A DNA stretch of 38,067 nucleotides from the NCBI GenBank assembly GCA_902788785.1, contig CADALT010000028.1, positions 1 to 38,067 of the forward strand, in the 5' to 3' direction. A program made the translations under genes and the position numbers. Under the pieces are notes generated by a model, which saw only the letters and a list, made by a program, of their open reading frames with translations, was not told where the DNA came from and did not search any database. How positions within the stretch are numbered: position 1 is the stretch's first letter; each line of letters opens with the position of its first letter. Source of the stretch: an uncultured Ruminococcus sp. (lineage in GTDB: Bacteria; Bacillota; Clostridia; Oscillospirales; Ruminococcaceae). Below are positions 4,773 to 24,611 of this stretch, piece after piece.

Positions 4773-5582
4773 ATGAGCAAAAACATCAAGACAATTATTG
4801 CAGCTGTGCTTTGCGCAGCATCTATCATGAGCATGGCAGCTTGCGGCAACACAGCTGAGGGCAGCACGACTGACACCACAAAGGCAGCAGGTGCCGCTGA
4901 GACTACAGCTGAGGCAGCCGAGACTACTGTTGCAGAGGAAAGCAAGGCTGAGGAGACCGCAGCCGAGACTACAGCAGCTGCTGAGGAGAGCAAGGCAGAA
5001 GAAACCACTGCCGCAGCCGAGGAAAGCAAAGCCGAGGAAACTACAGCCGCAGCACCCGCAGGCAGCGAGGATATGTTCCTTGACCCCAAGGCTCCCCAGA
5101 AGGTCGGCGAGTGGATCAAGTCCTGCGCACACAACACCACCAGCGACAGCGATGAATACATCGAGTGGAGAGTAGTCAGTGCAGGTGAAGAGGCCGCTGC
5201 TGAGGTAGAGAAGTATAACAGCGAGGGTCACATCTGGACACTGACTGAGCCAGAGCAGGACTTCATCAAGTATTACAAGGTAGTATACGAAGTAAAATAT
5301 CCCGAGGATCTGGAAGTCAGCGACACAGGTCTGTACATCGGCGATGTTGACCTTTATGCAGAAAATCCCGAAGGCGGCGGATTTGAGCGTGGCGGTGTAG
5401 CTTACATCGGTCTGGGTCAGTGCTTCACAGTATCGCAGGATATTGAAAAGCCAATGCCCGGCGACACTGTTACTTACACAGCAGTTTACACCATGACCGA
5501 CAACGATCCCGATTATGTATTCAGATACAGCTTCAAGGACAAGGACGGTCAGATGAAGGAATCCTTCTCCGCCCACAAATAA
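4773..5582 (+). CDS. Secreted lipoprotein with Ala/Glu/Thr-rich repeat linker
   Basis: A 269-residue protein. A lipoprotein signal peptide ends in SMAAC (lipobox Cys at about residue 26). A low-complexity linker of about 75 residues follows, with repeated ETTAAAEESKAEE blocks. The folded domain (about 105-269) begins DMFLDPKAPQKVGEW and looks all-beta (VYEVKYPEDLEV, GDTVTYTAVYTM). It is probably anchored outside the membrane by lipidation, with the linker spanning the wall. The family is not recognised; an immunoglobulin-like telokin/DUF4352 fold is a guess. The start is set by GGAGG 8 nt upstream. Confidence 0.85.
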   Translation: MSKNIKTIIAAVLCAASIMSMAACGNTAEGSTTDTTKAAGAAETTAEAAETTVAEESKAEETAAETTAAAEESKAEETTAAAEESKAEETTAAAPAGSEDMFLDPKAPQKVGEWIKSCAHNTTSDSDEYIEWRVVSAGEEAAAEVEKYNSEGHIWTLTEPEQDFIKYYKVVYEVKYPEDLEVSDTGLYIGDVDLYAENPEGGGFERGGVAYIGLGQCFTVSQDIEKPMPGDTVTYTAVYTMTDNDPDYVFRYSFKDKDGQMKESFSAHK

Positions 5583-5750
5583 CCCTAGCCCGGGTCGGCA
5601 ATTCGTCACGCAGTTTTGCTTAATAGATTAAACAGGCGCTCGAAGCGTCAACAAACGTCAGCTCTGCTGATGTTTGCTGATGCTGTTCACGACATTGCTT
5701 TGAAGCAAAGGGAGTTTACCCTAGCCCGGGTCGGCAATTTTATAACACGC
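5583..5750 (+). repeat. Two copies of the CCCTAGCCCGGGTCG repeat family
   Basis: CCCTAGCCCGGGTCG begins at 5583, directly after the lipoprotein stop codon, and again at 5719. The first copy continues with a cgTCACGcagttttgcttaatag stretch and aaacaggcgctcg, the same ordered blocks as in the 95-bp tandem array at 24196. Between the copies is a different insert containing an 11-bp hairpin (5652-5662 with 5666-5676). This is a dispersed repeat family placed 3' of genes. No coding content is seen. Confidence 0.75.
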
Positions 5751-5932: not shown

Positions 5933-5958
5933 GAGCCGCCGAACGAATTCAGCGGCTC
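5933..5958 (-). terminator. Stem-loop at the 3' end of the array RNA
   Basis: A 7-bp GC-rich stem (GAGCCGC/GCGGCTC) with a 12-nt loop. On the minus strand it is followed by UUUCAUUU. It is the first strong hairpin after the last repeat remnant, so it is the probable end of the array transcript. Confidence 0.55.
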
Positions 5959-6149
5959 ATTATTATCTTATCTGACCATTGGCTCCTGACAGTCGCCTGT
6001 CTGAAAGCCTAATATATGAAAGTATATTTTCGGACTCACGCCCTTCATAGATCTAAAAACGAGTTTTGATAATCTATATTATATTTCCATTGGAATTAGT
6101 TTCCTTTCGGTAGAATTTATCGTAGGAAAAAACTTAACTTCTCATCGGA

Positions 6150-6364
6150 CTTATTACCTTTCAATATATTTTTATCCTGTCCGCTTAATGCGGCAAAACT
6201 TTCAAGCCATCGGTTCAATTACCTTTCTTTAGATTAACGCTAATGCGTCATAATAAACGGGATGCACCCTTTGCTCGGATGCAGAGCTGCTATACCCTTT
6301 GGACTCACTCCTAACTCTCAAATATCAAGCAGTCTGATGTGCATTACCATAATGCAACACTCCC
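6150..6364 (-). repeat. Array unit 5
   Basis: This unit contains the palindrome TGCATTATGGTAATGCA, a ten-residue ORF, GGAGTGAGTCC, hairpin A (UGCAUCC at 6283-6277 with GGGUGCA at 6269-6263), hairpin B (GACGC-AUUA-GCGUU, 6249-6236) and the mini-ORF AUG-GCU-UGA at 6210-6202 behind GAAAGG. Two remnants follow with the same site-start spacing but no hairpins: Met-Arg-Ser-stop at 6145-6134 and Met-Glu-Ile-stop at 6090-6079. Confidence 0.7.
6318..6350 (-). CDS. Decapeptide ORF of unit 5 (MVMHIRLLDI)
   Basis: ATG with GGGAG about 9 nt upstream encodes ten residues and stops with TGA. Compared with the copies at 6721 and 6931 the peptide is nearly the same, while codons for Arg, both Leu and Ile change silently. 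That is the pattern expected if the peptide itself is kept. The same bases also form a palindrome, so the RNA alone could be conserved instead. Confidence 0.4.
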   Translation of the reverse strand: MVMHIRLLDI

Positions 6365-6540
6365 TATATTTAATATGCGGCATCGCTGCCGACAGAAAAT
6401 TCGATTTTAAACCAACTTATGCCATTGGTACCTATTCCTTTCAATGTATTGACGCTCATGCGTCTAAAATGATCGGGGTGCTCCAACGCTTGGAGCTAAA
6501 ACTGTTACCATCTTTCGGGACTGCTCCCGCAAAGATATTC
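6365..6540 (-). repeat. Array unit 4 (most diverged)
   Basis: This unit lacks the decapeptide ORF. In its place is a GGGA-GCAG-UCCC hairpin and a different short frame. Hairpin A is GCUCCA-AGCGU-UGGAGC and hairpin B is GACGC-AUGA-GCGUC, both paired with bases unlike those of the other units. The mini-ORF AUG-GCA-UAA is at 6425-6417 with AAAGGA 10 nt upstream. Confidence 0.7.
6464..6511 (-). CDS. Possible 15-residue ORF of unit 4
   Basis: ATG at 6511 opens MVTVLAPSVGAPRSF and stops with TAG. It spans hairpin A of the unit and has no relative among the other units' peptides. The ribosome site is weak, so this is probably incidental. Confidence 0.15.
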   Translation of the reverse strand: MVTVLAPSVGAPRSF

Positions 6541-6767
6541 AGTATAATGATCTCTCGACCGTTTTACGCTTGCGGTCTTCACCGCCTAAATTCGGGATAA
6601 ATTCCAACTATGCCATTGGTACGATTTCCTTTCGCAAAATTTAACGTTAAACGTCATAAACGGGATGCTTCCCACGCTCGGAAGCTAAGCTTAACTGCCC
6701 TTTGGAACCACTCCTAACTCTCAGATATTCAGCAGTCTGTTATGCATTACCATGTGGCAACACTCCC
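6541..6767 (-). repeat. Array unit 3
   Basis: This unit carries the decapeptide ORF, a GGAGTGGTTCC element, hairpin A GCUUCC-GAGCGUG-GGAAGC, hairpin B ACGU-UUA-ACGU, and the mini-ORF AUG-GCA-UAG at 6616-6608 behind AAAGGA. It is the longest unit, with an extra hairpin-forming stretch (ggcggtgaagaccgc) after the mini-ORF. Confidence 0.7.
6721..6753 (-). CDS. Decapeptide ORF of unit 3 (MVMHNRLLNI)
   Basis: Ten codons and TGA, with GGGAG about 9 nt before the ATG. It differs from the unit 2 copy at Arg (AGA/AGG), Leu (CTG/TTA and CTG/TTG) and Ile (ATC/ATT) without changing the residues. Here the overlapping palindrome is partly broken, which favours the peptide over the hairpin as the conserved entity. 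Confidence 0.4.
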   Translation of the reverse strand: MVMHNRLLNI

Positions 6768-6977
6768 ATAATATGATCTCGGTATCAAACCGTTTGAGTC
6801 GGATAAAATTTACCTCATGCCATTGGTACGTTTTCCTTTCGCAATATTTACGCAAATGCGTTTAAATGTCGGGATGCTTCCTCTCGCTCGGAAGCTAAGC
6901 TATATTGTACTTGGGACTCACTCCTAACTCTCAAATATTCAATAACCTGTTCTGCATCAACATAATGCATCACTCCC
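6768..6977 (-). repeat. Array unit 2
   Basis: Order of parts: palindrome (TGCAT/ATGCA arms only), decapeptide ORF, GGAGTGAGTCC, hairpin A GCUUCC-GAGCGAGA-GGAAGC, hairpin B ACGC-AUUU-GCGU, then AAAGGA and the mini-ORF AUG-GCA-UGA at 6823-6815. Confidence 0.7.
6931..6963 (-). CDS. Decapeptide ORF of unit 2 (MLMQNRLLNI)
   Basis: Ten codons and TGA preceded by GGGAG. The last six residues, NRLLNI, equal those of unit 3 despite four silent codon differences. Residues 2 and 4 differ (Leu and Gln). Confidence 0.4.
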   Translation of the reverse strand: MLMQNRLLNI

Positions 6978-7166
6978 ATTTTGATATTGTAGGATCAAAA
7001 ACCAACTATGCCATTGGTACCTATTCCTTTCAAATAGATTTGCGCTTTGCGCTGTGTCGGAATGCTTTCTGTCGCTCGAAAGCTAAGCTGCGTAGAACTT
7101 CGGACTCACTCCCCTCTATTTCATATTCAGATCACGTATATGCATTACCATAATGCATCACTCCTG
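6978..7166 (-). repeat. Array unit 1 (promoter-proximal)
   Basis: It begins with AGGAG and the perfect palindrome TGCATTATGGTAATGCA. Then come an 11-residue ORF, GGAGTGAGTCCG, hairpin A GCUUUC-GAGCGACA-GAAAGC (7083-7064), hairpin B GCGC-AAA-GCGC, and AAAGGA with the mini-ORF AUG-GCA-UAG at 7014-7006. Confidence 0.7.
7116..7151 (-). CDS. Short ORF of unit 1 (MVMHIRDLNMK)
   Basis: ATG with AGGAG upstream encodes eleven residues ending in TAG. The N-terminus MVMHIR matches the unit 5 copy; the C-terminus has diverged. Confidence 0.35.
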   Translation of the reverse strand: MVMHIRDLNMK

Positions 7167-7371
7167 TAAAATCTTTTCATCGCCCGCCTCTCCTCAGATA
7201 CGGCTGCACACCGGCCCTTTGACATGACGGGTAATATTCAATTTTAAGGTTGAGTATTCGTCTTGCAAAAACGTATTGATGGATCAGTCCCGTGACCCGT
7301 TGCTGCTTGCTTTGAAATACCGTTCATCGTTTGGATCTGTCAGCCATCGCTGAGCAACTATCCCTGAAGGT

Positions 7372-7422
7372 TCAAGCTTCCCCCGAGTCCTGAATACTCA
7401 TCAGACTCTCAAATACATCCAT
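7372..7422 (-). CDS. Possible 16-residue leader ORF of the array RNA
   Basis: AAAGGA is followed 9 nt later by ATG and the frame MDVFESLMSIQDSGEA, ending in TGA. The site GGAGCGAGTCCGATGG matches the element that precedes the mini-ORFs in the units. It is located in the leader between the promoter and unit 1. Confidence 0.35.
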   Translation of the reverse strand: MDVFESLMSIQDSGEA

Positions 7423-7617
7423 CGGACTCGCTCCTTTCAGAATACTTACTAAGATCTAACGGAGTCTGCACCGCTTGCTGAGATGGGCTCTCGCCCCGGA
7501 CTGTTTACGGCACCTTCACTATAACCCGTTACGGATCTCACCTTTAAGGAACTCTCGGCTTTAATATTGAGGGGATACTCTCCCTCAACTTTATTTGCTT
7601 TCCCTTTCCTTGAATAT

Positions 7618-7646
7618 ACTATAACACATTTCTTGTCACTTGTCAA
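7618..7646 (-). promoter_or_regulatory. Promoter of the array RNA
   Basis: On the minus strand, TTGACA (7641-7646), a 17-nt spacer and TATAGT (7618-7623) predict a transcript starting near 7611. It stands back to back with the DUF1292 promoter, 59 nt between the two -35 boxes. Confidence 0.8.
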
Positions 7647-7705
7647 TAGTTTTTTTCAACATTTTTATAATTTTTATATTTAACATTACTTTTAGAAATT
7701 CTCGC

Positions 7706-7799: not shown

Positions 7800-8129
7800 A
7801 TGGACGAGCAGATGAATGAATATACCCCCGATCTTTATGAGCTGGTGGACGAGAGCGGCGAAAAGCGCACTTTCGAGCTGCTGGACTGCATGGATTTCGA
7901 GGATGAGCGGTATTATGCGCTGACACCCTATTTTGAAGAAGAGGACGCAGAGCAGATGCTGAGCGACCCTGCATTGCTGGTCATACTGAGGGCTGAGTAT
8001 GATGAGGAGACAGGCGAGGAGATACTGGCTTCAATAGACGATGAAGATCTTTTCGACCGTGTAGGTGCAGCCTTTGAGGAAAGGCTCGAGGAGATGTTCG
8101 ATTTCGAGGATGACGAGGAGGAGAACTGA
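7800..8129 (+). CDS. DUF1292 (YrzB-like) acidic protein
   Basis: A 109-residue, very acidic protein (tail FDFEDDEEEN) with the DUF1292 pattern: YELVDESGEKRTFELLDCMD, then FEDERYYALTPY, then LVILRAEYDEETGEEILASIDDEDLFDRVGAAFEE. The length suits this family of small Firmicute proteins of unknown function, often found near the Holliday-junction resolvase RuvX. Here it is monocistronic. GGAGGAGG lies 7 nt before the ATG at 7800; an ATG at 7782 overlaps that ribosome site and is rejected. Confidence 0.85.
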   Translation: MDEQMNEYTPDLYELVDESGEKRTFELLDCMDFEDERYYALTPYFEEEDAEQMLSDPALLVILRAEYDEETGEEILASIDDEDLFDRVGAAFEERLEEMFDFEDDEEEN

Positions 8130-8234: not shown

Positions 8235-8500
8235 AAGAAAAAGAGGATGAGTCCTCTTAAATAAAATAGTTTATGATTGCTACCTTGTACGATCAAGCAT
8301 AGTTCTTTTAAATCCAACACTTATTAAAAGGGATTCGCACTCTTCGGGCAGATTGAAGACCTCCCGCCCACACCGCATTTGCCGTGTGGTCTACGGACGA
8401 AGGGATCATGAAACTCCAAGGTCGTTTTACCCACCCTGCATTTATGCGGGTTTATCTTCTATGCGACGGCAAGGCGGCAATTTTTATATCTGAATTTTAA
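8235..8500 (+). ncRNA. Structured non-coding RNA, 6S-like, unclassified
   Basis: A transcript of about 265 nt with its own promoter and no ORF. A long-range closing helix joins ATTGCTACCTTG (8277-8288) to CAAGGCGGCAAT (about 8470-8481), stacked on GCATAG with CTATGC. Inside are a CTTTTAA/TTAAAAG hairpin, an extended stem GATTC..CTTC with GAAGGGATC capped by a CCACAC/GTGTGG hairpin, and a CCC-GCAT/ATGC-GGG hairpin on the 3' side. A closing stem, an open centre and an apical rod are the general shape of 6S RNA (ssrS). I cannot confirm this, and a riboswitch or another RNA remains possible because the alcohol dehydrogenase gene follows at once. Confidence 0.55.
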
Positions 8501-15938: not shown

Positions 15939-15964
15939 AAAATCGTCCCCGCAGTGCAGGGACG
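15936..15964 (-). terminator. Terminator of rnpB
   Basis: On the minus strand, CGTCCC pairs with GGGACG (15944-15964), followed by ATTTTTT. It directly follows the RNase P 3' end. Confidence 0.85.
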
Positions 15965-16312
15965 AATGAGCTTACCTGTAAGCCGAGTTTTGTCGTGTAC
16001 GGTAATCTATCTAGTCCGCAGATCGCTCTGCGGCTCAAGCCACCTACAACCTTGGGTCTGACGAGCAGCCATTGACCCTTCGGCTGCCATTGGTGTTGCA
16101 TCGGATAAGGTTTACATGGCAGCGGCATCTCTGCCGCTCCGGTGGGCTCTTACCCCGCCTTTCCACCCTTACCGCATAAAATGCGGCGGTATATCTCTGT
16201 TGCACTGGCTCGGAGGTCACCCTCGGCTGACGTTATCAGCTATCCTGCTCTGTGATGCTCGGACTTTCCTCATGAGCGTATGATCGCTCCCGCTACCGCA
16301 CGGTATGCTCAC
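15965..16312 (-). ncRNA. rnpB: RNase P RNA (type A)
   Basis: The catalytic RNA of the tRNA 5'-processing enzyme. Conserved blocks appear in order on the minus strand: GAGGAAAGUCCGAGC, ACAGAGCAGGAUAGCUGAUA, GGUAAGAGCCCACCG, the AUGUAAACC segment, CGAAGGGUCAAUGGC, AGAUAGAUUACCG and the 3' ACAAAACUCGGCUUACAGG. The ends pair as P1 (GAGC with GCUC). About 348 nt is normal. The layout fits the ancestral A type, used by many clostridia in place of the Bacillus B type. The ends are accurate to a few bases. Confidence 0.96.
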
Positions 16313-20779: not shown

Positions 20780-23700
20780 ATGAGATCAAAAATGACAGCA
20801 TCCGCACTGCGTGAGATACGCAGTTCCTTCGGGCGGTTCATGGCTATACTTTCCATAATCGCTCTGGGTGTGGGATTTTTTACGGGCGTAAGGATAACTA
20901 CGCCTGCGATGGTAAACACTGTGGGCGGATTTATGACAGACCACGAGCTTTTCGACTACCGCATAATCTCGACCTTAGGTTGGGAGGATAAGGACGTTGA
21001 TAAACTTAAAGAACGTGAGGATGTGCGTGCGGCAGAGGGCGCTTACGCACTGGACTTGCTATGCCTTGACGAGGAGGGCGAGGAGCACGTTTTCAAGACA
21101 CACTCGCTGACAGATGACGTGAACAGACCCGACATACTGGAAGGCAGGCTGCCGAAAGATGCAGGGGAATGTGTGATAGACGGCAAGACCGCTTTCAAGG
21201 TGGGTGACAAGCTGACCGTCAGCGAGACCGAGAACACCGAAGATGCGCTCGACGGCTTCAAGCCCCGTGAACTTACGGTGGTGGGCAGGATATACTCCCC
21301 TGCCTATGTGCATTTTGAGCGTGGCACGACCTCGCTGGGCAGCGGTTCGGTGACGGGCTATATCTACCTGAACGAAGCGGATTTCGATATGGACGTATAC
21401 ACCGAGCTTTACATAAAGCTCGACCATGAACTTGATGTATATTCCGATGAATACAAGGACTATATGAGCGAGCGTGAGGGCAGCTGGGAAGAGGCTGCCG
21501 AAGCACAGGCTCAGGACAGGTATGAGAGGATAGTATCTGAGGCGGAGGAAGAACTGAACTCGGGCAGAGAAGAGCTGGACAGCGCCCGTGAAGAGGGCAG
21601 GCAGGAGCTTGACAGTGCCCGTGAGGAACTGGACAGCGCCAAGGAAGAACTTGACAGTGCCGCAGAAAAGCTGAAAGAAGCCGAGAAAGAGATAGCGGAC
21701 GGTGAAAAAGAGATAGCGGACAACGAGAAAAAGCTCTCGGACGCCAAGGCGCAGCTGGACAACGCAGGCAGCACTCTCGCAAGCGGCAAGGCACAGCTGG
21801 ACAGCGGCTGGGTACAGCTTGAAGCGGGCAGGAAAGAACTGGAGAAGAATGAGAAGGCTCTCACGGACGGTGAAAAGGAGCTCAAAACGGCGCAGAAGCA
21901 GATAGACGAGGGTCTTGCGCAGATAAAGACTGCCGAGAAACAGCTGGACGGTCAGCAGAAGGAACTGGAGGAACAGCAGACTGCTTTCATGAAAGAGAAC
22001 GGCGCATATTTCGAGATGATAGATATGCTGCCCACCGAGCAGGAAATGCAGCTAAACGGTGCAAAGGCACAGTTCGAGCAGGGGCTTGGACAGATAGAGG
22101 CTGCACGCAAGGAGCTGGGACAGAAAAAGGCTGAACTCAGTGCAGGTCAGAAAGAGCTGGACGGCAAGAAAAAGGAGCTTGATACCGCAAAGGAAAAGCT
22201 TAGTGCAGGCAGGGCTGAATACGAGAAAAATCTTGCGGCTTACTATGCATCTGCAGGGCAGTATGAGTCGGGCAGGGCGCAGTACAACAGCGGTCGGGCT
22301 GAATACAACAGCGGAAAGGCTCAGCTTGAGGACGGCAAAAGCGAGCTCGAAAAGGGCAGGCGTGAATATGAGGACGGAAAAGCCGAGTACGAAGACGGCA
22401 AGAAGAAATACGAGGACGGCGAGCAGGAATACGAAGACGGTCTGACTGAATTTGATGAAGAGATAGCCGATGCGGAAAAAGAACTGGCAGACGGTGAGCA
22501 GGAACTGCGTGACCTGGAAGCGCCCGACATATTCCTGCTGGACAGGAACACGAACATAGGCTATGCCTGCTTTAAAAACGACTCTGAGATAGTAGCGCAG
22601 GTGGCTAGGGTGTTCCCCATATTCTTCATACTGGTGGCGGCACTGGTATGCATGACGACAATGAGCAGAATGGTAGAAGAACGCAGGACGCTCATAGGCA
22701 CGCTGAAAGCTTTGGGCTATTCGGAGAGGGCGATAATGCGCAGGTTCACGTTCTACGCAGGCAGTGCGGCCATGATCGGCTGTGTGCTGGGCTACGGCGT
22801 GGGCACGGTACTTTTCCCGAGAGTCATCTGGATGACCTACAAGCTCATGTACATAGAGCTCGATATAAAATATCTTTTCGATGTGAAGCTTGCGGTGATA
22901 GCGGCGGCGGTATCGCTGTTGTGTTCGGTGGGAGCCGCATGGCTGTCATGCAGGTACGAGCTGGCAGAGACTGCGGCGGAGCTTATGCGTCCCAAAGCCC
23001 CGAAAGCAGGCAAAAGGGTACTGCTGGAGCACGTACCGTTCATATGGAACAGAATGAAATTTCTGCACAAGGTATCAGTCAGGAACATTTTCCGTTACAA
23101 GAAGAGACTGTTCATGATGATACTGGGCATAAGCGGCTGTACGGCGCTGCTGCTCACAGGTTTCGGCATAAAGGACTCGGTGGGCGATTTTGCGGTGGTA
23201 CAGTACGAGGAGATCGTGACGGCTGATGCGTCCGTAAGCTACAAGGCGGAGGACGACGGGACAGTTCCCGCCGAGCTCTCGCAGAAGCTTGGGGATATCG
23301 GTGCGGACTATGCCTGTGTATACTCAGCCTCGTGGGATCTTGTGAAGAAAGATCTGACAAAGAGCATGAGCGTGGTAGCTCCCGAAGATTTTTCACAGTT
23401 AGAGGGCAGCATGAACTTCATAGACACTGACGGCAGCAAGCTGACTGCCCCTGTGGGTGACGAAGCGCTGGTATCGGTCAGTGTGGCAGAAAGGTACAAT
23501 GTCAAAAAGGGTGACGAGATAGAACTGCGTGACGAAAACATGAGGACACTGCACTTCACGGTCAAGGACATATTCGACAATCATGTATACAACTATGTTT
23601 TTGTAAGTCATGATGAGGTCGAGCGGCAGCTGGGCGAGCGTGCGGACTTAAACGAGATGTATGTGAACTTTAAAAGCGGCAAGGACGTTCACGAGGCGCA

Positions 23701-24187
23701 GGCTGAGATAGGCAAGCTTGACAGTGTTACTAATGTTACGCTCTACGAAGATTTCAAAAAGCGCATGACCGACTCGATGAGCAGCCTTGACTATGTGGTG
23801 CTGCTGGTGATAGTGAGTGCGGCAGGACTTGCATTCATCGTGCTTTACAATCTGACGAACATAAACATCACCGAGCGTGAGCGTGAGATAGCCACCATAA
23901 AGGTGCTGGGATTTTTCAAGAACGAAACTGCGGCTTACGTGCTGAGGGAGAACATATTCCTGACAGCGCTGGGCATTGCGGTGGGACTTGGACTGGGCGT
24001 GATACTGCACAGGTTCGTAATGGCGCAGATAGTGGTGGATCTGGTAAGCTTCAAGGTGAGGATACTCCCCCGAAGCTACTTATTCAGCATCGCACTTACT
24101 TTCCTTTTCAATCTTGCGGTGAATTTCTTCATGGAAAGCAAGCTTGAAAAGATAAACATGGCAGAAAGCCTAAAATCCGTCGAATGA
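20780..24187 (+). CDS. FtsX-type ABC permease with large coiled-coil ectodomain
   Basis: 1135 residues. A first membrane helix (about 15-40) leads to an outside domain that includes a coiled coil of roughly 340 residues (about 245-590) made of near-repeats such as EELDSAREELDSA and YEDGKAEYEDGKKKYEDG. The first FtsX domain has three helices (about 610-725, VFPIFFILVAALVCMTTM onward). A second anchored outside domain and a final FtsX domain (from about 1000, SLDYVVLLVIVSAAGLAF) end the protein. Such permeases are mechanotransducing rather than simple pumps. The substrate is unknown; peptide or lipid efflux and envelope regulation are options. Confidence 0.9.
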   Translation: MRSKMTASALREIRSSFGRFMAILSIIALGVGFFTGVRITTPAMVNTVGGFMTDHELFDYRIISTLGWEDKDVDKLKEREDVRAAEGAYALDLLCLDEEGEEHVFKTHSLTDDVNRPDILEGRLPKDAGECVIDGKTAFKVGDKLTVSETENTEDALDGFKPRELTVVGRIYSPAYVHFERGTTSLGSGSVTGYIYLNEADFDMDVYTELYIKLDHELDVYSDEYKDYMSEREGSWEEAAEAQAQDRYERIVSEAEEELNSGREELDSAREEGRQELDSAREELDSAKEELDSAAEKLKEAEKEIADGEKEIADNEKKLSDAKAQLDNAGSTLASGKAQLDSGWVQLEAGRKELEKNEKALTDGEKELKTAQKQIDEGLAQIKTAEKQLDGQQKELEEQQTAFMKENGAYFEMIDMLPTEQEMQLNGAKAQFEQGLGQIEAARKELGQKKAELSAGQKELDGKKKELDTAKEKLSAGRAEYEKNLAAYYASAGQYESGRAQYNSGRAEYNSGKAQLEDGKSELEKGRREYEDGKAEYEDGKKKYEDGEQEYEDGLTEFDEEIADAEKELADGEQELRDLEAPDIFLLDRNTNIGYACFKNDSEIVAQVARVFPIFFILVAALVCMTTMSRMVEERRTLIGTLKALGYSERAIMRRFTFYAGSAAMIGCVLGYGVGTVLFPRVIWMTYKLMYIELDIKYLFDVKLAVIAAAVSLLCSVGAAWLSCRYELAETAAELMRPKAPKAGKRVLLEHVPFIWNRMKFLHKVSVRNIFRYKKRLFMMILGISGCTALLLTGFGIKDSVGDFAVVQYEEIVTADASVSYKAEDDGTVPAELSQKLGDIGADYACVYSASWDLVKKDLTKSMSVVAPEDFSQLEGSMNFIDTDGSKLTAPVGDEALVSVSVAERYNVKKGDEIELRDENMRTLHFTVKDIFDNHVYNYVFVSHDEVERQLGERADLNEMYVNFKSGKDVHEAQAEIGKLDSVTNVTLYEDFKKRMTDSMSSLDYVVLLVIVSAAGLAFIVLYNLTNINITEREREIATIKVLGFFKNETAAYVLRENIFLTALGIAVGLGLGVILHRFVMAQIVVDLVSFKVRILPRSYLFSIALTFLFNLAVNFFMESKLEKINMAESLKSVE

Positions 24188-24195
24188 CCCCCTAG

Positions 24196-24611
24196 CCCTA
24201 GCCCGGGTCGCCAAATCGTTACGTTGTTTTGCTTAATAGGAAAAACAGGCGCTCGGTAGCGGTCTATAGTTGGTCGCTATAGGTAGCTTACCCTAGCCCG
24301 GGTCGCCTTGTCGTTACGTTGTTTTGTTTGATAGAAAAAATAGGCGCTCGGCAGCGGTCAATAGTTTGGTATTATAGGTAGCTTACCCTAGCCCGGAACG
24401 CCTTGTCGTTACGTTGTTTTGTTTAATAGAAAAAATAGGCGCTCGGTAGCGTTCAATAGCATGGCACTATAGGTAGTTTACCCTAGCCCGGGTCGCCTTG
24501 TCGTTACGTTGTTTTGTTTAATAGGAAAAACAGGCGCTCGGTAGCGGTCTATAGTTGGTCGCTATAGGTAGCTTACCCTAGCCCGGGACGCCTTGTCGTT
24601 ACGTTTTTTGC
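24196..24611 (+). repeat. Exact 95-bp tandem repeat, about 4.4 copies
   Basis: CCCTAGCCCGGG-like starts lie at 24196, 24291, 24386, 24481 and 24576, exactly 95 bp apart; the last copy is cut off near 24611. Each unit has a CGTTACGTTGTTTTG block, an AAxAGGCGCTCGG block and a variable 20-nt segment around CTATAG. Copies 1 and 4 are nearly identical, while 2 and 3 differ mainly in the variable segment. No ORF or promoter is seen. The core recurs at 5583 and 5719. Confidence 0.92.

Follow-up and report, generated by a model that had tools for sequence, protein, structure and literature searches.

Lambda bar is a two-codon minigene. The tarsal-less/polished rice transcript of insects, once thought to be non-coding, carries several tiny open reading frames (ORFs) for related functional peptides, and 6S RNA, an untranslated RNA of about 190-210 nt, binds RNA polymerase. 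The mg2 minigene of axe-txe, which also has two codons, is reported to act in cis, possibly by raising mRNA stability, and two-codon minigenes are known as single elements near other genes (PMC8708949). Here we describe a minus-strand RNA gene of about 1.68 kb in a 38,067-nt stretch of an uncultured Ruminococcus sp. (assembly GCA_902788785.1, contig CADALT010000028.1; the whole stretch is called the window). The predicted RNA runs from 7611, a start placed from its promoter, to 5933, and its repeated units carry very short ORFs (micro-ORFs) whose translation is very probably conserved.

The layout of the RNA is given in Table 1. The initial annotation had recognised a promoter, five tandem minus-strand units and a stem-loop at the far end, and from these a single RNA of about 1.7 kb. 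The promoter is indeed there, with the -35 hexamer TTGACA (7646-7641) and the -10 hexamer TATAGT (7623-7618) separated by a 17-nt spacer, and scores 11/12 with the TG in a consensus scan. The -10 hexamer is preceded by TGTG, which we take to be the extended -10 of Gram-positive promoters; a palindrome between the two hexamers was considered as an operator and is not claimed, the extended -10 being more likely. The GC-rich stem-loop with its T-rich tail was also confirmed, and conservation of promoter, units and terminator argues for one RNA of the proposed size. The units are tandem, of about 165 nt each, with start-to-start spacings of 215, 191, 207 and 191 nt, but only four are full length: the fourth in order is decayed in its first third and has neither hairpin P2 nor the usual first micro-ORF. 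The statement that no frame exceeds about 65 codons holds for the sense strand, where no ATG, GTG or TTG frame is longer than 44 aa, but not for the antisense strand, which has a 112-aa ORF (6262-6600, plus strand). Across the RNAs no long sense ORF recurs, the longest sense frames varying among them. Longer GTG frames through the unit were rejected; they are open in some units only, and frames 1 and 2 have no coding signal.

Nearly all units carry two micro-ORFs led by a Shine-Dalgarno (SD) sequence. In a typical unit one SD lies nine bases ahead of the ATG of a 10-13-codon frame (ORF A, e.g. MVMHNRLLNI-stop), and a second SD precedes ATG-GCN-stop (ORF B, Met-Ala). The window RNA has 16 SD-led sites whose ORFs do not exceed 20 codons, compared with at most five (mean one) in the 694 other stretches of its length obtained by sliding along the window. 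About a dozen start sites are each stopped after 2 to 16 codons. The initial annotation saw only antisense or shadow frames as coding candidates and described an array without coding content; it missed these 16 sense-strand sites, and conserved starts and in-frame stops are found throughout the RNA.

The same pattern is found in related RNAs. In 42 RNAs from the genus and the family, which are related and not independent, there are 430 SD-ATG sites compared with 143 in dinucleotide shuffles and six on the reverse complement, and 30 of the 42 taken singly exceed the best of 50 shuffles. These are the RNAs left from 54 loci when 12 without a recognised terminator or running off the contig (including R. 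bicirculans, L041) were omitted. The 19 RNAs outside the genus show 174 such sites versus about 56 in shuffles. Of the ORFs in the 42 RNAs, 96% end within 20 codons (72% in shuffles), and their lengths cluster at 2-3 and 10-13 codons. Start-to-start gaps have their sharpest peak at 50-59 nt (80/345); for this count, as for the peptide and CCRATG counts below, L034 was excluded as one of a near-identical pair of R. albus loci. At SD sites with CCRATG, 155 of 212 ORFs in 41 RNAs have two or three codons, and a stop follows directly on ATG-GCN in 79/92 cases. A search of the window's own genome with the Met-Ala site pattern gave six matches, five of them inside the RNA; a reversed control pattern gave two. 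In distant family members the peptides differ and the grammar is kept, with a first ORF of 14-22 codons, ORFs often ending in NI and ORFs of 2-3 codons.

The positions of the stops were examined in 47 genus units, hand-picked as full length from 116 profile matches blind to the peptide, near-identical loci being omitted. The ATG of ORF A has a homologous ATG in 44 of them, and all 44 ORFs stop at codons 11-14, compared with stops scattered over 3 to 60 codons in frame 2 from the same start. ORF B stops at codon 3 in 43/47 units (TAG 15, TGA 14, TAA 14) and at codon 4 in the other four, a figure that covers start and stop; the SD was scored in the window units, where 5/5 have the SD, ATG, single sense codon and stop of a two-codon minigene. 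Genus units also contain a third SD-like motif, GGAGTGAGTCC (e.g. window 6924-6914), which is mostly followed by AAG where the other modules have ATG. One module per unit may therefore have lost its start, leaving a possible silent docking site.

Substitutions in ORF A are of the coding type. The synonymous share of single-base codon differences is 0.69 in frame for codons 6-10, compared with 0.11 and 0.25 in the other frames, and 0.54 compared with 0.19 and 0.32 for codons 2-10. Length changes in ORF A preserve the frame. One codon-position table for ORF A was biased, its set having been chosen by peptide ending, and the test was redone on the peptide-blind units. Constraint on the RNA alone would not be expected to favour third positions or three interchangeable stop codons. 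Taken together, conserved starts, in-frame stops and synonymous bias, the marks of a translated micro-ORF array, make conserved translation of the micro-ORFs very probable.

The RNA between the micro-ORFs appears to be structured as well. In a 29-pair structure for 30 units, 94% of the cells are standard pairs, and changes on both sides affect 69 cells, whereas shuffles give 22 and slid controls no more than 16; the structure was derived from the same 30 sequences on which it was scored. Further pair types, one of the five covariation measures, were not raised (23 versus 25.8 in shuffles). The 30-row alignment was used in place of a mixed 47-row one, on which RNAalifold gave five pairs, none changed on both sides, a result we attribute to misaligned distant rows. 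Helices 5 and 6 hold 8/10 of the pairs with changes on both sides. These helices separate the unit's two micro-ORFs, and coding therefore cannot account for their covariation; the covarying hairpins support an RNA structure. That start codons lie in hairpin loops was dropped as a general rule.

The RNA is kept in the genus and recurs in more diverged form elsewhere in the family, in other genera. It gives a BLAST match in 27/29 genus genomes, the window's own included, and in 20/20 of those with low contamination and a completeness of 90% or more; the two genomes without a match (G007 and G025) are 80% and 86% complete. The weaker matches cover the promoter and a few pieces, where the unit profile still recovers units. 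This profile finds units in 26/29 genus genomes (27/29 loci, the window among them); in one genome (G027) the contig ends soon after the promoter and no unit is seen. A profile of the 5' region (about 90 nt) is present in 28/29 genus loci, and the 29th locus begins inside the RNA. The order of promoter, units and terminator is preserved, a terminator-like hairpin being accepted past the last unit in 41/53 other loci, and the promoter pattern is also present in records of R. albus 8, KH2T6 and AR67, R. bicirculans 80/3 and Ruminococcus sp. FC2018. Searching with a covariance model of the unit, as proposed with the initial annotation, gave 30 matching genomes out of 297 in the family, five of them in the genus and many of the other 25 scoring weakly. 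As an independent sign, 22/25 family loci outside the genus have the promoter profile (E<0.001) upstream on the same strand. In an order-level sample of 295, searched with stricter filters, the three matches were the window's own genome and two of the same family. One genus genome (G009) has the RNA on two contigs (L033 and L036) with equal unit scores; one copy is at a contig end and is perhaps an assembly duplicate.

The initial annotation suggested that the RNA may already have a name, and this was not borne out. A cmscan search against Rfam 15 at the gathering threshold placed no family on the window RNA, a search at E up to 10 gave five matches, all far under their thresholds, and nothing in Rfam fell on the RNA in 34 further loci carrying it. 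Full-text literature searches, whose coverage leaves out most subscription papers and bioRxiv, gave no account of a bacterial RNA that carries start-stop ORFs in an array. The main texts of structured-RNA surveys of 26 and 50 genomes contain the word "Ruminococcus" 0 times (PMC8632094, PMC11109978).

The neighbourhood of the RNA is also conserved. The RNA promoter and the DUF1292 gene are divergent in 59/59 other loci where both could be located, separated by a median of 142 nt; some of these loci share one genome, and three further loci have the promoter and no DUF1292 match in the stretch covered. A 6S RNA follows DUF1292 on the same strand in all 26 of the 30 family 6S loci where DUF1292 was found, the 30 being the best-scoring of 98 genomes with a 6S match. 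The RNA promoter (E<0.001) is seen in 13 of these 30, in 13/13 on the opposite strand. At class level, where 124 genomes had a 6S match, neither promoter nor unit was seen in the 30 top-scoring 6S loci. Within the genus, 6S was detected at E<0.01 in 10/11 loci scanned. It scores 33-43 bits in those 10, and annotation at the Rfam cut-off would miss it there. The promoter profile also matches before two tRNA genes in one relative (L152, 1663-1706), which suggests a promoter of stable-RNA type shared with tRNA genes.

Table 1. Predicted features of the micro-ORF RNA and of the genes beside it (window positions; the stop of ORF B in units 2 and 5 extends one base beyond the unit end)
Feature	Positions	Strand	Evidence
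RNA, about 1.68 kb	5933..7611	-	BLAST match in genus; order promoter-units-terminator kept
Promoter region: conserved A/T-rich upstream stretch, -35 and -10	7618..7690	-	Consensus scan, 5' profile
5' micro-ORF, 16 codons, MDVFESLMSIQDSGEA-stop, SD GAAAGGAG	7372..7422	-	Similar first ORFs in relatives
Repeat unit 1: micro-ORF A 7151-7116 (MVMHIRDLNMK-stop), hairpins, micro-ORF B 7014-7006 (MA-stop)	7002..7166	-	
Repeat unit 2: A 6963-6931 (MLMQNRLLNI-stop), B 6823-6815 (MA-stop)	6816..6978	-	
Repeat unit 3: A 6753-6721 (MVMHNRLLNI-stop), B 6616-6608 (MA-stop)	6604..6768	-	
Unit 4, degenerate: SD-ATG at 6511 (15 codons), B 6425-6417 (MA-stop)	6415..6560	-	
Repeat unit 5: A 6350-6318 (MVMHIRLLDI-stop), B 6210-6202 (MA-stop)	6203..6364	-	
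Micro-ORF MRS-stop, SD GAAAGG	6134..6145	-	Tripeptide recurs in relatives
Micro-ORF MEI-stop, SD GAAAGG	6079..6090	-	Relatives vary at Ile third base and in stop
Possible micro-ORF MVR-stop (SD AGGAG, short spacing)	5968..5979	-	
Intrinsic terminator stem-loop, GC-rich, T-rich tail	5933..5958	-	
DUF1292 gene, divergent neighbour	7800..8129	+	PF06949, E 4.7e-14
6S RNA candidate, after DUF1292	8274..8484	+	RF00013, 40.4 bits (gathering 46.4), E 6.8e-7

The units, the covarying hairpins, the starts and stops, the coding-type substitution of ORF A, the promoter, the terminator and the synteny can all be read in the sequences; that the RNA is made and that ribosomes use its starts, we infer. What it does is a matter for more caution. 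We tentatively propose a ribosome-docking array working through ribosome engagement, a reading that we hold as possible. The gene would make, from a strong-looking promoter, an RNA of repeated modules (SD, start, a few codons, stop) interleaved with hairpins. Ribosomes would initiate at some dozen sites simultaneously, each leaving within a few codons, and the RNA would act through their engagement and not through the peptides. Such an array might hold or buffer ribosomes, or report how many are free, and could be the translational counterpart of the adjoining 6S RNA, which holds RNA polymerase. Docking is the simplest use of a dozen start-stop sites because a two-codon product is hardly functional, no same-strand gene follows in the window and no CsrA was found in the genus (see below). 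Met-Ala in particular is hardly a functional peptide. An attenuator of the leader-peptide or upstream ORF (uORF) type does not apply in the window, where the transcript has no regulated main ORF downstream: the terminator is followed by a gene on the plus strand and by none on the RNA strand. Highly expressed proteins are enriched in alanine at position 2 (PMC1397820), and its presence in the two-codon ORFs was counted for docking. The wider proposal is doubtful: that this is a class of RNA, in the genus and in many genera of the family, that does for ribosomes what 6S does for RNA polymerase, its string of start-stop micro-ORFs docking many ribosomes and buffering or sensing translation capacity, back to back with DUF1292 and 6S.

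Several observations weigh against docking or against the features on which it is built. About five of the 16 window sites are expected by chance and two of the 16 overlap other micro-ORFs, while 12 of the 42 RNAs are not above the best of their 50 shuffles. Only about one-quarter of the start-to-start gaps fall in the 50-59-nt peak, and there is a broad second group at 105-149 nt (97/345). SD/anti-SD pairing at the micro-ORFs (median -6.9 kcal/mol, n=386) is weaker than at 19 window gene starts chosen by us (-10.7 kcal/mol; P 0.00015), which speaks against ribosomes being captured very strongly. For start codons presented in a hairpin loop, the mean stem is 5.45 compared with 4.82 when shuffled (n=144), a modest support. 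A second promoter look-alike (L153) precedes nothing that Rfam recognises, and the stable-RNA character of the promoter has one tRNA example behind it. Finally, amino-acid conservation of the ORF A and ORF1 peptides goes beyond the needs of pure docking and points to a role for these peptides at least, or for the way they are decoded.

The peptides are the starting point of the best alternative, which we regard as somewhat unlikely: a polycistronic mRNA for micropeptides, with a first peptide of 14-22 aa and peptides of 10-13 aa often ending in LNI as products, and with the two-codon ORFs as spacers or couplers. It would account for the synonymous bias in ORF A and for the peptide types MKMHxRLLNI, MHxxSFxEK and MDVxES that recur across genomes; the first ORFs of relatives resemble that of the window and are of the MDVxESLxSIQGSxxS type. 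However, the commonest product of ORFs of at most three codons is Met-Ala (82/183; MRS makes up 9/183), an unlikely signal. Micro-ORFs occupy only about 19% of the RNA, covarying hairpins lie between them, and the seven neighbouring window proteins that were scanned include no peptide transporter or receptor family.

The covarying hairpins outside the ORFs would suit an improbable second alternative, in which a structured RNA has some other function and its micro-ORFs load ribosomes for protection from RNases or Rho, or for control of folding. A two-codon minigene possibly raises mRNA stability in cis (PMC8708949), but protection would hardly call for a dozen sites with exact early stops. There is a slim chance that the RNA is instead a minigene tRNA trap, whose two-codon ORFs would release fMet-Ala-tRNA, tie up the tRNA and peptidyl-tRNA hydrolase and brake translation. 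Two-codon ORFs make up 119/212 of the SD-led CCRATG sites, and minigene expression is reported to be toxic via release of peptidyl-tRNA (PMC8708949). Against this, the second codon of the short ORFs varies (MA, MG, MV, MC, MR, MY, ME), many ORFs are 10-18 codons long, and presence in nearly all genomes of the genus sits badly with toxicity.

The initial annotation listed a sponge among the possible functions. An untranslated RNA sequestering a protein that binds GGA or AAAGGA motifs, as CsrB/RsmZ do CsrA, is very unlikely: each unit has GGA motifs in or beside its hairpins, but this leaves in-frame stops with three alternative codons unexplained. A CsrA sponge in particular was rejected, as CsrA (PF02599) was found in 0/29 genus genomes while 3/14 control genomes were positive, a result that concerns CsrA alone among proteins. 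The tandem copies and the one decayed unit might recall a degraded coding gene or the end of a mobile element, possibilities that the initial annotation had raised against itself, but this has practically no chance given the conserved locus, promoter and gene neighbours, the covariation, the single place in the window's own genome, the lack of a match in plasmid and phage records and the lack of a recurring long sense ORF.

Elsewhere in the window, a 22-nt repeat of the ACCCTAGCCCGGGTCGGCAATT type occurs at 5582-5603, 5718-5739 and 24195-24216. It is a dispersed repeat, found at 38 places in the genome with at most three mismatches and often in runs about 95 nt apart (e.g. G000:C30:40073-40569). 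A large plus-strand frame at 20780-24187, which by its look and without a family search resembles a membrane permease, has a very long, charged, repetitive coiled-coil-like insert and follows a frame resembling an ABC ATPase. The RNase P RNA (class A) lies at 15963-16311 on the minus strand, as expected.

RNAs without a long ORF are filed as non-coding; the one described here carries a conserved chain of translation starts and stops. If confirmed, the RNA would represent a new use of translation, for engagement rather than product, and a natural array of two-codon genes, and it might link the control of RNA polymerase by 6S with that of ribosomes. The culturable commensals R. albus and R. bicirculans make it directly testable.

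The comparison with known systems can be drawn at several levels. Among large conserved structured bacterial RNAs of unknown function, OLE, ROOL, GOLLD and raiA are comparable, but Rfam gives no match to them or to any other family on this RNA, which differs from them by its micro-ORF array; ROOL and GOLLD have been reported from phages and prophages (PMC12286853), whereas this RNA is chromosomal with fixed neighbours. CsrB/RsmZ sponges share the repeated GGA motifs, but this RNA has in-frame starts and stops and belongs to a genus in which CsrA was not detected. Leader-peptide attenuators and uORF motifs, as far as their published descriptions go, likewise place short conserved ORFs within RNA structure; here there are many ORFs per RNA and no regulated gene downstream in the window. 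Like tarsal-less/polished rice, this is one supposedly non-coding transcript with several tiny related ORFs, but that system is eukaryotic, makes functional peptides and is not known to have an array of two-codon ORFs. 6S RNA is a neighbour at the locus and offers a suggested parallel, an RNA that holds a core machine, but it is short and untranslated, and cmscan saw no sequence relation between the two. The closest relatives in design are the two-codon minigenes lambda bar and axe-txe mg2, which share the SD, start, single codon and stop and in which translation matters and not the product. They stand singly or in pairs near another gene, whereas here they form an array in an RNA of its own, with its own terminator, together with longer micro-ORFs and covarying hairpins.

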